Source of the DNA: Myxococcaceae bacterium
Lineage (GTDB): Bacteria; Myxococcota; Myxococcia; Myxococcales; Myxococcaceae
Assembly (NCBI GenBank): GCA_022842905.1
Contig: JALHOS010000023.1
Location: forward strand, 3,637-36,576
DNA: 32,940 nt
Direction: 5' to 3'
In this document: positions 13,295-23,406 of the stretch, piece by piece
Numbering within the stretch: position 1 is the first letter of the stretch
Layout: each line of letters opens with the position of its first letter
The notes under the pieces: generated by a model
Seen by the model: only the letters and a program-made list of their open reading frames with translations
The model's database searches: none
What the model was told of the DNA's origin: nothing
Program-made: the position numbers and the translations under genes

Positions 13295-14287
13295 TCAGAA
13301 CTCGAGCGTGGGCGCCGTGAACTTCGCGCTGTGCACCACGTCGCCGCGCTTCGGCTCTCCCTTCGGCTGGGCCACCCCGTTGCGCACGAAGTCCCTGAGC
13401 ACCAGCGGCAGGCCGTGGGCCGTGCGCCAGTCGGGCCCGTCCATGAGCTGAAAGTGCACGTGGGGCTCCGTCGACAGACCGCTGTTGCCGGTGCGGCCCA
13501 CGGGTTCGAACGCGGCGACGCGCTGCCCGGGCTGCACGACGATGGAGCCGTTCCTCAGGTGGGCGAGCAGCGAAAACTCGTCGGCGGCATGCCGGAGGAC
13601 GACCACGTTCCCGTAGAGGCTCTCGAACGAATGGATGCGGTTGGGCTCGTTGTCGACGACCCCGTCCACGACGGCGACGACCTCGGCGTCAGCCGGCGCG
13701 AGCACGGGCTTGCCCCAGCAGGCGTACTGCTCGTTGCGCGTCCCGTCGCCGGTGAAGGTGCTGCCCTTCTCCACCATCCACAGGTCGAGCGCGTAGCGCA
13801 TGTCGGGGACGGCGGCGTGGCGGTTGTCTTCGAACGAGCGGCCGCCCCAGAGCACCGTCCACGAGCCCGAGACCGGCAGGTGCAGCGGCGTCTTCGGCAC
13901 GCGGCGGGCGTGAGGGCTGGGCGCGGCGCTGCTGGCGGTGCGCGCGGCGATGGCGTGGAGCTTCCCCGCGCCGTCGAGCACCAGCTCCCACTCGACGCCG
14001 CGGGCCCAGTGCTTGACGTGCGCGCGCCGCACGTAGCGCAGGCCGCCCTTGCTGGGCTGCAGCGCTTCGTCGATGAGCCGCAGCTCCGGTCCGAAGTTGT
14101 CGTTCGCCTTGGCGAGGAACTGCTCCAGCGCCTGCGCCGTCGGGAACTGCCGGCTCAGCCCGGAGCCCGCCCAGTCGGTGAGCAGCGCGGCGTCTCGTGA
14201 CAGCACCGCCGCCATGAGCCGTTGGGCGTGCTCCAGGCTCGGCGCCTGGGCGACACAGACGACGAGCGCGAAGGCAGGCAGTCCCAC
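13295..14287 (-). CDS. M23-family (LytM-like) metallopeptidase
   Basis: This 330-residue protein starts at a GTG at 14287 and has a short signal-like segment (VGLPAFALVVCVAQA). An N-terminal helical region (residues 20-130, DUF-like, with AQRLMAAVLSRDAALL) is followed by the peptidase domain from about 145. Zinc-site elements are RYALDLW with Asp168, SLLAHLR, and HVHFQL with His276 and His278. The usual first His of HxxxD is Arg164 here; His157 a few residues earlier may take its place, as in the RYAxD subgroup of M23. A substrate in the peptidoglycan peptide cross-links is expected from the family. It lies 52 bases downstream of the macro/deoxyribosyltransferase-like gene on the same strand and may be in its transcript. 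Confidence 0.88.
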   Translation of the reverse strand: MGLPAFALVVCVAQAPSLEHAQRLMAAVLSRDAALLTDWAGSGLSRQFPTAQALEQFLAKANDNFGPELRLIDEALQPSKGGLRYVRRAHVKHWARGVEWELVLDGAGKLHAIAARTASSAAPSPHARRVPKTPLHLPVSGSWTVLWGGRSFEDNRHAAVPDMRYALDLWMVEKGSTFTGDGTRNEQYACWGKPVLAPADAEVVAVVDGVVDNEPNRIHSFESLYGNVVVLRHAADEFSLLAHLRNGSIVVQPGQRVAAFEPVGRTGNSGLSTEPHVHFQLMDGPDWRTAHGLPLVLRDFVRNGVAQPKGEPKRGDVVHSAKFTAPTLEF

Positions 14288-14339: not shown

Positions 14340-15332
14340 TCAGCGCAGGCCCAGCGCGCCGAGCTCCTGCCGCAGCGTCTGCTCGAGCTGGCGAATGGTG
14401 CCGTAGGCCAGGCAGCGGTGGCCCTTCACGTCGAAGCGCAGCTCGGCCACGTCGCGCACGAGCAGGATCGTCGGCACCTTCAGCCCCCAGGCGTAGCCGA
14501 CCTCGAGGTACACGTTCGGGTTGGCGCCGCTCAGCTCCGCGACGACGACCTTCGCCGAGGCGATGCGGGACAGAATGCGCTCGATGATGAGGCCCGAGAA
14601 GACGGTCTGGTCGACGCGCTCGCACAGCAGGCCCGCGTCGCGCAGCGGCAGCTGAATGCCGTAGTGGAAGACGTCTTCGAACTCCGGCGCGAACGGCATG
14701 GCGACGAAGGCGTGCGGCTTGTCCTGGGCCGACGTGCCGTAGCCCTGGAGCGACGGGCTCGGGGGCTTCGTCGCCGGGCGCTGAATCTGAAACGCGCCGT
14801 CCACCGCGCGCACGTCGCCGATGTCGACCAGCCGCTGCCGGAACGTGGCCTCGAGCCGCTTCGCGCGGCTGGTGCGCTTCTCGACGATGACGACGCGCTC
14901 GAGGCTCGCCGGCGCGGCGCCCCGCTGGATCGCGTCGATGAGGCCGCCTACCAACGCGAGGCCGGCCTCGTCTTCGTCGAGCCCACAGTTCGCCCCATGC
15001 ACGGTGATGCCCACGGTGCGAATCGGCGGGGTGCGCTGCGCCAGCGCTTCGAGCGCCTTGCCGGCGAGCAGGCGCACGTCCAGGTAGCCGAAGCCGGACA
15101 GCGGCACCGTGCCGACGAAGAGCACGCCGTTGGCGCCCAGCGTGCCTCGCGCGTCGACCCACGCCGACTTGCCGGGGAGCAGTTCGAACGTGCCCGGCAC
15201 GAAGCCAGACGCGCGCAGCCGCTCCGCGACCGCGCCGTCCGACGCATGGAAACTCTGCGCGTACTTCACCACCACCGCGTCGACGACCAGGTCCAGCAGG
15301 TCGCCCTGGAGGACTTCCAGCCTCACGCTCAT
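14340..15332 (-). CDS. Macro-like domain fused to nucleoside deoxyribosyltransferase/TIR-like domain
   Basis: This 330-residue soluble protein has two domains. Residues 1-165 resemble a macro fold as in the N-domain of leucyl aminopeptidases and conflict-system proteins (LEVLQGDLLDLVVDAVVV at the start, ITVHGANCGLDEDEAG near 110, LERVVIVE near 145). Residues 200-330 resemble the deoxyribosyltransferase/TIR-like fold: HAFVAMPF from 207, a GLIIERI helix, VVVAELSGANPNVYLEVGYA with Glu277 in the catalytic position, and PTILLV. Such folds cleave N-glycosidic bonds in nucleosides or NAD; macro folds bind ADP-ribose-type ligands. The ATG overlaps the astA stop by 4 bp, so the two are translationally coupled. 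A role in nucleotide metabolism or NAD-based defence is inferred, not shown. Confidence 0.72.
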   Translation of the reverse strand: MSVRLEVLQGDLLDLVVDAVVVKYAQSFHASDGAVAERLRASGFVPGTFELLPGKSAWVDARGTLGANGVLFVGTVPLSGFGYLDVRLLAGKALEALAQRTPPIRTVGITVHGANCGLDEDEAGLALVGGLIDAIQRGAAPASLERVVIVEKRTSRAKRLEATFRQRLVDIGDVRAVDGAFQIQRPATKPPSPSLQGYGTSAQDKPHAFVAMPFAPEFEDVFHYGIQLPLRDAGLLCERVDQTVFSGLIIERILSRIASAKVVVAELSGANPNVYLEVGYAWGLKVPTILLVRDVAELRFDVKGHRCLAYGTIRQLEQTLRQELGALGLR

Positions 15333-16354
15333 TCGAACGGCACCACGCTGACGCGCTCGCCGGGCTTCACCTTGAGCAGGTCCTTGGCCGGCTTGGGGAG
15401 GTACACCTCTTGGTCGTCGAAGCGCACCTGACAGCGCACCGCTCGGAAGCGGTTGTGGCCCGCGCCGCGCGAGACGGCCACCAAGGCGTCCTCCGCCTCT
15501 TGCTCGAGTGACTCCTTCTTGAGCGTCGCCGTGCGGTAGCGCCGCACCAGGGCGATGTCGTGGAGGTTGGCCTCGTAGTGGGGGCCGCCGTCGAACGGGT
15601 CGATGTGGTTGACGTACCGAAAGCCGATGCGCTCGAGCATGCGCTGCACGCCCTTGGTCTCGGGGCCGACCTCGCCGATGAGCTTCTGCGCGCGGTCGCT
15701 GAACAACGTCGCGTAAATGTCGGACGACGGGAACAGCTCCTTGATGAACTCCTTGTTCTGGCGCGACAGCTTGTCGGCCTCCGGGTACTCGAGGCCGGTG
15801 AACTTCTTGCCGCAGGACTCCCAGAGCAGGCTGCGGCCGTCCTCCATGAGCGGCGGGAGCAGCTCGGCGAGCACGCGCTCGCGGAAGAGCGGCTTGTGCA
15901 TGGCCATGAAGAGGAAGCGCACGTAGGACAGCTGCTTGCCTGGCTTGTCCGGGCCGCTGCGGTGCGGCGGATCGACGACGAGCCCGCCGATCTCCGTCGG
16001 CCCTTCGTAGTTGTACCCAATCGACAGCACCTTGTGCCGGAAGTGCGCGTCGATGCTCGCCGAGTAGTGCTCGGCTTCGGTGACCTGGAAGTAGATGTGC
16101 GGCGCGTCCTTGGTGCCGTGCTGGGCGATGATCATCGACGTGCCGATGATGAGCTCGTTGCGCAGGTCTTCGAGCACGAACAGGTATTCGCGCTCGTGCG
16201 GCGCCTCGAGCTTCCCGGCGAAGCTCTTCACCGACCGGTCGATGAGCTGCGCCAGCACCTTCTTGTCGTTCGGCAGGTTGACGCTGTTGAGCACGGCTGC
16301 CAGCCGCTGGAGCCCTGCCAGGTCGGACCTCGCTACGTCTCGCAGGAGCAACAT
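15329..16354 (-). CDS. astA: Arginine N-succinyltransferase
   Basis: This 341-residue protein is the usual length for AstA, which transfers succinyl from succinyl-CoA to arginine in the first step of the AST arginine-degradation pathway. Matching family blocks include LSYVRFLFMAM, FTGLEYPEADKLSRQNKEFI, LFPSSDIYATL, a QKLIGEVG segment and IDPFDGGPHYEA. The frame is open 20 codons further up, but starting at ATG 16354 (MLLLRDVARSDL) gives the conserved N-terminus. The other ast genes (astB, C, D, E) are not in this window. The stop overlaps the start of the macro/deoxyribosyltransferase-like gene, an unusual partner. The C-terminal residues (VYLPKPAKDLLKVKPGERV) look like a small AbrB-type tail typical of this group. 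Confidence 0.9.
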   Translation of the reverse strand: MLLLRDVARSDLAGLQRLAAVLNSVNLPNDKKVLAQLIDRSVKSFAGKLEAPHEREYLFVLEDLRNELIIGTSMIIAQHGTKDAPHIYFQVTEAEHYSASIDAHFRHKVLSIGYNYEGPTEIGGLVVDPPHRSGPDKPGKQLSYVRFLFMAMHKPLFRERVLAELLPPLMEDGRSLLWESCGKKFTGLEYPEADKLSRQNKEFIKELFPSSDIYATLFSDRAQKLIGEVGPETKGVQRMLERIGFRYVNHIDPFDGGPHYEANLHDIALVRRYRTATLKKESLEQEAEDALVAVSRGAGHNRFRAVRCQVRFDDQEVYLPKPAKDLLKVKPGERVSVVPFE

Positions 16355-16543
16355 GCGCCTTGCCTTAGACCAAGGCCGCGAAGGCGACCACCTTTCGCGG
16401 ACGTCCTGGGTCACGCCCCGTCGCTCGGGAGCGCAGTACGCGGCCCGATATCTCGTCGTCCTGACCTTCCGCCTCGGCTGCGGCGCTGGCAGCCACCACC
16501 CGTTCTCACCCGCGCCGCTCGGCCGCTCGACCGTCCCCCGCGC

Positions 16544-21862: not shown

Positions 21863-22681
21863 TCAGCGTCGCAGTCGCGGCGGGTTGGCTCCCGACACGC
21901 CGCCGTCCTTCCTCGACCAGCCGCTCTCGGCGGCCAACGCGGCGGCGTAGGGCACGAGCGCCCGAGCGTCCCTCGCTGACGCATCGACCGGGACCGCCCC
22001 GTGCAGCTCGTAACCCTCGGTCGACGGGACGAAGCGCAGGCCGAAGAGCCGCACGCCGGCTCGCTCCGCGCGCTCGAGCGCCTTGGCGAACGCCGGGTCG
22101 TGCAGCGGGCTTGGCCGCAGCACCTGCCCGTCCGCACGGAGCAGGGTGAAGAGCACCGCCGCGCGCTGGCCACGGCGCGCCAGCCTCGCGAGCGCTTTGA
22201 CGTGCGCGGTGGCCCGCTCGCTCACGCTGTCGGGGAAGTACGCGCCGCCGTCGGGGTAAACGAGGTGGCTGTTCTTCACCTCGAGGTGCCACGGCCCGTC
22301 ACTGCGCTCGACGACGAAGTCGACCAGGTGGCCTCGTCCCAGCGGCCGCTCGGTCGCGACGGAGCGCACGTCGTCCCAGCCTGGGACGGCGCCCGCGCGC
22401 AGGGCCTCCTTGACGAGCCGGTTGGGGACGACGGTGTTCGCGCCGATGAGCTGGCCGTCGAGCTCCAGCAGCTCCAGCGTGTGCGTCAGCGAGCGGTCGG
22501 GGTTGTCCGCGACGGACACCCACGCCGGCGCGCCGATGCGGACCAAGCCTTCCATGCGCCCTGGGTTCACGCAGTGCGCGCGAATGAGCCGACGCCCCAC
22601 GCGCACCTCGGCGATGAAGCGCTCGTACCGGCGCACCAACGTGCCCCGCAGCAGCGTGCCGCTCCAGGGTCGGAGCTTCAT
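21863..22681 (-). CDS. sfsA: SfsA-family DNA-binding/nuclease-like protein
   Basis: This 272-residue protein has SfsA family blocks throughout: RRYERFIAEVRVG, AHCVNPGRMEGL, LELLELDGQLIGANTVVPNR, GHLVDFVVE, LEVKNSHLV, DSVSERATAHVKAL and RAAVLFTLLRAD. The GH..DFxV, LEVK and E residues fit the nuclease-like fold described for the family. The name comes from sugar fermentation stimulation in E. coli; its exact role is still unclear. It is about 35 residues longer at the C-terminus than the E. coli protein. The ATG overlaps the stop of the ABC ATPase gene by 4 bp, so it is the last gene of the amino-acid transporter operon, an unexpected partner. Confidence 0.92.
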   Translation of the reverse strand: MKLRPWSGTLLRGTLVRRYERFIAEVRVGRRLIRAHCVNPGRMEGLVRIGAPAWVSVADNPDRSLTHTLELLELDGQLIGANTVVPNRLVKEALRAGAVPGWDDVRSVATERPLGRGHLVDFVVERSDGPWHLEVKNSHLVYPDGGAYFPDSVSERATAHVKALARLARRGQRAAVLFTLLRADGQVLRPSPLHDPAFAKALERAERAGVRLFGLRFVPSTEGYELHGAVPVDASARDARALVPYAAALAAESGWSRKDGGVSGANPPRLRR

Positions 22682-23406
22682 GGTTGCCGCTCGGCGACGG
22701 CGCGCAGCACGTCGGCCGGCGGTCCGCTCTGGACGACGCGGCCGTTCTCCAGCACGCAGACGTGCTCGAGCTCTCGCGCAAAGGCCAGGTCGTGCGTGAC
22801 GACGACCTGCGTGACGTGCGCGGCGTCCACCCGCTTGAGCGCTTGCAGCACCTCGTTGCGCAGCGCCACGTCGAGCGCGCTGGTCGGCTCGTCGTAGAGC
22901 AACACCGCGGGCTCCATGGCCAAGGCCCGGGCGATCGCCACCCGCTGCTTCTGCCCACCGGACAGCTGGGCCGGGAAGACGTGCAGCCGCTCCGAGAGGC
23001 CCAGCTGTTCGAGCAGCGCCTTCGCGCGCCGCTCAGCCTCGCCGCGCGCCTCACGCTTCACCGTCACCGGCGCCAGCGTGCAGTTGTCGAGCGCCGTGAG
23101 GTGGGGGAACAGCTCGAAGGACTGAAAGACGAGCCCCAGCCGGGTGCGGGCCTCGGCGAGCGCCTTCGCGCGCTCGGCCCCAGACACTTCCTTGGTGCCC
23201 CGCACCACGACGCCGTCGATCTCGATGAGCCCTTCTTCGAACGGCTCGAGCCCCATGACACACCGGAGCATCGTCGACTTGCCCGCGCCGCTCTTGCCGA
23301 GCAGCGCCGCGAGCGTGCCCTTGGGCAGCTCGAAGGACAGCCCCTTGAGCGTGGCCTCGGCGTTCCCCGCGTGGTGGCGGACGACACCCTGCACCCTGAG
23401 CGTCAC
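22678..23406 (-). CDS. Polar amino-acid ABC transporter ATP-binding protein
   Basis: This 242-residue ATPase shows Walker A GKSGAGKST (about residue 37), a Q-loop in LVFQSFELFPHLTALDN, the signature LSGGQKQR, Walker B VLLYDEPTSALD and the H-loop VVVTHDL. The QSFELFPHLTALDN block and overall length are typical of GlnQ/HisP-type importers for polar amino acids. The GTG start overlaps the stop of the fused binding protein-permease by 4 bp, and the stop overlaps the sfsA start by 4 bp. Two copies are expected to sit on a permease dimer formed by the upstream gene product. Confidence 0.93.
   Translation of the reverse strand: MTLRVQGVVRHHAGNAEATLKGLSFELPKGTLAALLGKSGAGKSTMLRCVMGLEPFEEGLIEIDGVVVRGTKEVSGAERAKALAEARTRLGLVFQSFELFPHLTALDNCTLAPVTVKREARGEAERRAKALLEQLGLSERLHVFPAQLSGGQKQRVAIARALAMEPAVLLYDEPTSALDVALRNEVLQALKRVDAAHVTQVVVTHDLAFARELEHVCVLENGRVVQSGPPADVLRAVAERQP

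Follow-up and report, generated by a model that had tools for sequence, protein, structure and literature searches.

The gene at positions 14340-15332 on the minus strand of the window (the whole stretch of DNA analysed here, 32,940 nucleotides from a Myxococcaceae bacterium) is conserved, chromosomal and vertically inherited in myxobacteria, and encodes a two-domain protein that we read as an enzyme with a predicted activity, a ligand-gated N-glycosidase most likely consuming NAD+. We are evenly balanced between accepting and rejecting this reading. The two-part protein is uncharacterised and is not a known defence system. For its biochemistry, a ligand-controlled ribonucleotide N-glycosidase, with NAD+ first among the candidate substrates, is the likeliest; for its biology, a conserved chromosomal function in myxobacteria is the likeliest, and defence is possible.

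An earlier note on this DNA had singled out the open reading frame, and it was confirmed as a real, conserved protein-coding gene. In the list of open reading frames it starts with ATG and encodes 330 amino acids followed by a stop; its third-position GC content of 0.95 is typical for real genes in the window, and the dN/dS ratio, between 0.04 and 0.21 in 12 of 12 closely related pairs, indicates purifying selection. Upstream lies an AstA-like arginine succinyltransferase gene (15329-16414, minus strand, 361 aa), whose stop shares 4 bases with the start of the macro/NDT-like gene. Its product matched PF04958 at 2e-103 and, despite this strong match, stays below the NCBI equivalog cut-offs for AstA and related families; the gene is present as a single copy in this genome. 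In the window, the two genes are possibly co-transcribed. The comparison with 17 other flanking loci, two of which represent the same region, gave no AstA-related open reading frame, so that the pairing, confined to the window, is not part of the finding, and an operon with astA was rejected. A peptidase M23 gene (13295-14287) comes after the macro/NDT-like gene. Scans for sigma-70 promoters and for terminators gave no matches.

The sequence matches of the protein are mostly weak. Pfam gave Nuc_deoxyrib_tr (PF05014) with 21.5 bits against a cut-off of 28.8, NCBIfam a fragment of O-acetyl-ADP-ribose deacetylase (E 0.03) and PADLOC a TIR effector model (E 3.8e-12). The same holds across the family: PF05014 was weak in 36 of 36 rows (best E 4e-6) and below the cut-off in all 16 members from genus g6, and the TIR effector model matched 36 of 36 rows. 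FeoA, DUF5754, RNA_pol_A_CTD and similar Pfam matches, weak, below cut-off and confined to few rows, were set aside as chance. Searches of the PDB with the sequences of the protein and its family yielded weak matches, with MilB in the PDB profile list. The earlier note had named a close relative with a characterised function in nucleoside salvage as a finding that would speak against its reading, and none was found in the Pfam, NCBIfam and PDB searches.

An AlphaFold2 model, built from a 36-row family alignment (A1), exhibited two globular domains with no added membrane helix region, with a pLDDT of 89.1 and a pTM of 0.84. The N-domain (aa 1-187; 14772-15332, minus strand) and the C-domain (aa 203-330; 14343-14726, minus strand) are joined by a low-confidence linker (aa 188-202; 14727-14771, minus strand), with a pLDDT of 58 in block 191-200. 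By Foldseek and VIA-align, residues 1-175 form a macro fold, matching PARP9 macrodomain 2, the P. putida leucine aminopeptidase (3h8f) and E. coli PepA (1gyt), each with a Z of 16.9, as well as the O. iheyensis macrodomain with a Z of 16.4-16.7, all of which are ties, as are any VIA-align rows differing in Z by less than 1. By the same methods, residues 203-330 adopt the deoxyribosyltransferase (NDT) fold, and the best among the matches listed is DNPH1 (8rps_B; Z 17.4, rmsd 1.9, 121 residues, 20% identity). No canonical TIR structure is among the best 50 VIA-align matches listed, the places being taken by chains of macro, PepA and DNPH1 proteins, and this leaves room for a TIR likeness.

The N-terminal domain, which the earlier note called macro-like, indeed has the macro fold (Z 16.9), but judged by its sequence it belongs to the PepA (Peptidase_M17_N) type and not to the classical PF01661 type that binds ADP-ribose. 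The family profile A1 retrieved, via its N-terminal part, two leucyl aminopeptidases (L105, E 2.9e-11; L106, E 4.4e-6), both confirmed as M17 peptidases. An HMM of the N-domain only scored two PepA N-domains, chosen because the family profile had matched them, at 1.5e-13 and 1.2e-7, and reached at best E 0.004 with ten classical PF01661 macrodomains from six genomes. Peptidase_M17_N (PF02789) itself stays below its gathering cut-off, matching one of 36 rows with 17.8 bits versus 23.4. PF01661 matched neither the window protein nor any of the 36 family rows, and the loop-1 NAAN/GGGG signature for ADP-ribose is absent in the alignment with 10 PF01661 domains of 6 genomes. A classical ADP-ribose macrodomain was thus rejected, as the fold agrees but the loop-1 signature does not. 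According to the accessible part of a published survey, the M17 N-terminal domain is placed in Pfam's Macro clan (PMC6500376).

The loop H112-G113-x-x-x-G117-L118-D119 (14976-14999, minus strand), equivalent to the phosphate loop 2 of macrodomains, is invariant in all its defined columns in A1 (36 rows) and in the N-domain alignment A3 (25 rows). It aligns with 'HGAGIGGLD' of PepA and 'STGAYGF' of macrodomains, HGANC-GLDEDEA of the window protein standing against HGAGIGGLDPREA of PepA. All 25 rows of A3 share K23, G74, Y83, H112, G113, G117, L118, D119 and E151. These residues make binding of a ligand through loop 2 plausible, and it remains putative because the loop-1 signature is absent. The protein therefore has in common with PepA the fold and sequence of the N-domain and the HG...GLD..EA loop, but it lacks the M17 catalytic domain and has a predicted glycosidase attached instead.

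The motif ANPNVYLEVGYA, pointed out in the earlier note, is present in the window protein, and its Glu is residue 277 (14502-14504, minus strand), the predicted nucleophile in NPNVYLEVGYA. A loss of this Glu in the family, which the note would have counted against itself, did not occur: a column tally showed Glu277 in 44 of 44 family rows, which include close relatives within the same genera, in 30 of 30 C-domain relatives and in 6 of 6 canonical NDTs, and its surround NPNV..E.G.A is invariant in the 44 rows. The place of the catalytic Tyr of NDT and DNPH1 (Y24) is taken by Phe209 (14706-14708, minus strand). This equivalence, besides the column tally, comes from VIA-align offsets to human DNPH1 (203->18, 204->19, 205->20), assuming no gap there, and the sequence alignment agrees with it (VYLAAPF in canonical NDTs of the same phylum versus AFVAMPF). 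The column holds Phe in 44 of 44 family rows and in 29 of 30 C-domain relatives, the other one (L086) being truncated and without the column, whereas it holds Tyr in 6 of 6 canonical NDTs of the same phylum. Likewise by column tally, Ile253 (14574-14576, minus strand) takes the place of the acid/base Asp of NDT and DNPH1 (D80), with Ile in 44 of 44 family rows and either Ile or Met in all 30 C-domain relatives, two of which (L091 and L098) contain stop codons read as X, whereas Asp is found in 5 of 6 canonical NDTs of the same phylum. Arg239-x-Asp241 (14610-14618, minus strand), invariant in 44 of 44 rows, is a candidate base or nicotinamide pocket. Most of the invariant columns of A1 fall in the C-domain.

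In the part of the source available, the catalytic triad of DNPH1 is given as Y24/D80/E104, and MilB, with Phe17 at the Y24 position, is said to accept ribose, its F17Y variant reportedly using ribonucleotides less and deoxynucleotides more (PMC10603095). According to an excerpt from Shi and colleagues (PMC11204291), the Tyr position is usually occupied by Phe or Ala in TIRs that are NADases, and the family shows this pattern, the catalytic Glu277 being invariant and Phe209 occupying the Tyr position in 44 of 44 rows. A canonical NDT acting in salvage was ruled out by the residues, Phe for Tyr and Ile for Asp, in 44 of 44 rows each. Of the deoxyribosyltransferase/TIR-like C-terminal domain proposed earlier, the NDT fold stood (DNPH1, Z 17.4), while the residues of a deoxyribosyltransferase, with Phe209 and Ile253, did not. 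Going by these residues, the C-domain is not a deoxyribosyltransferase but resembles the sites of ribonucleotide-cleaving enzymes or TIR-type NADases, and a substrate of the ribonucleotide/NAD type is favoured.

DNPH1/Rcl and MilB, NDT-fold nucleotide N-hydrolases, have the C-domain fold and the catalytic Glu in common with the window protein, and MilB also the Phe (F17); the window protein differs by Ile253 for the acid/base Asp, by the missing Tyr and by the fusion to a macro fold. With TIR and TIR-like NADases (CAP12-type TIR, DUF4062, the retron-Eco1 NDT-like effector) it shares the NDT/TIR fold relation, the conserved Glu and the Phe at the Tyr site, but it has no linked system genes, its activity is predicted, and PF10137 matched a single one of 36 rows (L035, 20.5 bits versus a cut-off of 24.7) and not the window protein itself.

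In the mechanism we propose, the C-terminal NDT-fold domain would have a TIR-like active site, in which Glu277 would attack a ribonucleotide at its C1', the likeliest target being the nicotinamide riboside of NAD(P)+. Nicotinamide as a leaving group would require no acid catalyst, and the loss of the acid/base Asp would suit such a leaving group, which needs no protonation; Phe209 instead of Tyr would leave room for a 2'-OH. The N-terminal PepA-type macro domain would bind a small nucleotide-like ligand via the invariant GxxxGLDE loop, possibly the ADP-ribose product, and would switch or restrain the glycosidase. NMPs and other ribonucleotides would fit Phe209 equally well as NAD+, and the strongest fold match among those listed, DNPH1, is a deoxynucleotide hydrolase, which speaks against the NAD+ reading. 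TIR NADases usually require self-association, which also counts against the proposed mechanism. A retron NDT-like effector, the subject of work by Carabias in 2024, reportedly forms filaments that hydrolyse NAD+. DUF4062, related to TIR and NDT, is an NADase according to the accessible part of its description (PMC13174449).

The C-domain also occurs outside this family. Among ten C-domain relatives scanned, one each carried a guanylate cyclase (L078), a HATPase (L088) and a SLOG domain (L095), and the other seven showed nothing clear beyond at most a weak NDT match. Judging by these three fusions, the NDT/TIR-like clade seems to be a signalling module subject to shuffling.

A protein search of 195 Myxococcota genomes gave matches in 66, and full-length relatives, counted from the search rows, in 62, with 45-100% identity. 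The full-length holders comprise 61 genomes of the window's own family (f1) and one (G155) of another family in the same order; in G153 the gene is split over two contig ends. The gene is present in 16 of 16 genomes of genus g6 and in 25 of 27 of genus g19 (G126 and G137 being without it), and in 3 of 7 of genus g8 and 0 of 4 of genus g7, and these absences leave room for an accessory role. Those relatives that carry a name are listed as Archangium sp. or uncultured Myxococcales. Outside the phylum, full-length relatives were found in 2 of 395 genomes, a Syntrophobacterales MAG (L035, 30%) and L076. Searches of 72,556 plasmid and 50,697 phage records gave no full-length copy; in IMG/VR, profile A1 gave one C-domain-only locus and the N-domain profile A3 no confirmed locus. 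In a tree of 43 family proteins, the seven genera with at least two rows each form one group, and all labels together need 11 changes, the smallest number attainable. For comparison, the CAP12-type TIR (PF10137) is patchier, with 11 carriers among 58 genomes sampled from the same family, and strong NDT matches were obtained in 6 of 189 Myxococcota genomes. A second, partial copy in G071 (C16:15922-16527) contains two TAG stops and is apparently a decayed duplicate.

The gene usually is solitary, between divergent and convergent neighbours. In genera g5, g6 and g19 it lies beside the same convergent gene, and other genera have different neighbours. Neighbours were scanned at 14 of the 15 flanking loci, four genes on each side (112 genes); the remaining locus (L062) was left out as gene calling had missed the family gene there. 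Ala_racemase_N and D-ser_dehydrat domains were present in 6 of the 112 neighbours, which we take to be the shared convergent gene of the three genera. No conserved partner gene was found in the flanks of the 15 comparison loci nor among the 112 called neighbours, and the same searches found no linked thsA or thsB genes, so the pairing of the Thoeris kind evoked in the earlier note did not materialise. The search for a defence-island setting, which the note had suggested, was no more favourable, with six PADLOC models reaching E 1e-10 or better among the 112 neighbours, each in a single gene and without recurrence. These were a subtilase, a TIR effector, PycTIR, PycC (Pycsar cyclase) and two viperin models. 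In the window itself, one of the ten other genes scanned with PADLOC matched: the gene at 22678-23406 (minus strand, 242 aa) hit the MADS models mad3 (6e-32) and mad8 (2e-10) and a Toprim-ATPase model, and we suspect its product to be an ordinary ATPase. The window is no recognisable defence island.

Vertical inheritance and the lack of full-length copies in the plasmid and phage records argue against a mobile anti-phage cassette, and a mobile defence gene was disfavoured on these grounds and on the IMG/VR result; neither observation argues against a conserved conflict or cell-fate role. We infer a reaction on NAD+ under ligand control, with a chromosomal signalling or cell-fate role rather than one in mobile defence. 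Of the earlier interpretation as a NAD- or nucleotide-linked conflict protein, the two folds and the catalytic Glu were borne out, and the class of the N-domain, the Thoeris partner and the defence islands were not.

The nearly fixed single copy in g6 (16/16) and g19 (25/27), together with the vertical inheritance, would also suit a housekeeping cleaner, in which the C-domain would hydrolyse a non-canonical or damaged ribonucleoside monophosphate in a MilB-like manner while the macro domain would hold or process the sugar-phosphate. DNPH1 as the closest solved fold among the matches listed, MilB in the PDB profile list and the agreement of Phe209 with MilB Phe17 point in the same direction. 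However, expelling an uncharged base calls for the acid/base Asp, which is replaced by Ile in all 44 rows, and the C-domain relatives occur in signalling-type fusions (guanylate cyclase, HATPase, SLOG); we hold such a role to be rather doubtful. A catalytically dead nucleotide sensor, suggested by the fact that only one of the three NDT catalytic residues is retained, is very improbable in view of Glu277 and NPNV..E.G.A, invariant in 44 of 44 rows, and of a C-domain that holds most of the invariant columns.

Two readings place the protein in anti-phage defence. A stand-alone abortive infection protein, whose TIR-like domain would be released by a phage cue and deplete NAD+, would account for the PADLOC TIR-effector model in 36 of 36 rows and would resemble the NDT-like/TIR-like NADase effectors of the retron-Eco1 and DUF4062 systems, as the accessible portions of the sources describe them. 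The related macro-fold domain in CHAT proteases (see below) also speaks for it, and the absence from some genera (g7, 0/4; g8, 3/7) would allow an accessory role. This abortive infection reading is nevertheless distinctly unlikely, there being no defence-island context and no full-length plasmid or phage copy, with a vertical tree and, by comparison, a patchier occurrence of CAP12-type TIRs (11 of 58 genomes in the same family). In a two-gene Thoeris-like system, the macro domain would sense a signal from a separate TIR gene; TM-macro ThsA effectors do exist (PMC11204291, in the part available), and type II (TM-macro) Thoeris likewise combines macro and TIR-like folds. Here, in contrast, both parts lie in one chain with no added membrane helix region in the model, the macro domain is of another class, no neighbour is conserved across genera and the PADLOC TIR model was found in only 1 of 112 neighbours. 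This or another two-gene system was rejected for want of a recurring partner, and we find it hardly credible.

If the preferred reading, a ligand-gated N-glycosidase, is right, a single polypeptide unites a nucleotide-reading with a nucleotide-breaking fold, which would open the control of a TIR-like enzyme by its ligand to study within one molecule. Automatic annotation lumps likely ribonucleotide/NAD-type domains together with true deoxyribosyltransferases under PF05014, and the Phe209/Ile253/Glu277 pattern would offer a simple sequence test to tell them apart.

The N-domain profile, searched against 189 Myxococcota genomes, also matched (E 1e-8 to 8e-6) open frames of 1139-1163 aa, which come from four genomes belonging to g8 and g9. 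Two of these regions (L160:1154-4555, plus strand; L161:1082-4471, minus strand) each encode a protein of some 1130 aa that has an alpha/beta-hydrolase-like region in front, a PepA-type macro fold in the middle and a CHAT domain at the C-terminus. The caspase-like CHAT domain was matched by Pfam at 1e-29 and 2e-27, the front gave weak Pfam matches and the middle domain was not recognised by Pfam. The middle region was modelled as a macro fold (pLDDT 84; Z 16.4 with macroH2A and 16.1 with leucine aminopeptidase 8pz0); the alignment behind this model, A4, included rows of the window protein's family as well. No fusion of a PepA-type macro domain to an NDT/TIR-like domain or to CHAT was found in the portions of the literature available, and the accounts of Rossmannoid nucleotide-processing domains in modular fusions, in their accessible parts, name none with a PepA-type macro domain. 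That these bacteria also carry a related PepA-type macro domain in their CHAT proteins suggests an as yet unstudied sensor module. We tentatively put forward, as an unlikely but wider view, that myxobacteria may have recruited the PepA-type macro fold as a ligand-reading switch for cell-fate enzymes: it would gate a TIR-like NAD+ glycosidase in cis, with feedback by its own ADP-ribose product, and a related domain would gate a caspase-like protease in the alpha/beta-hydrolase-macro-CHAT proteins, together making up an NAD-sensing circuit that multicellular bacteria would carry on the chromosome and keep by vertical inheritance.

A stand-alone Peptidase_M17_N protein of 188 aa, without the aminopeptidase domain, was also observed in G003 (L162:1393-1956, plus strand).
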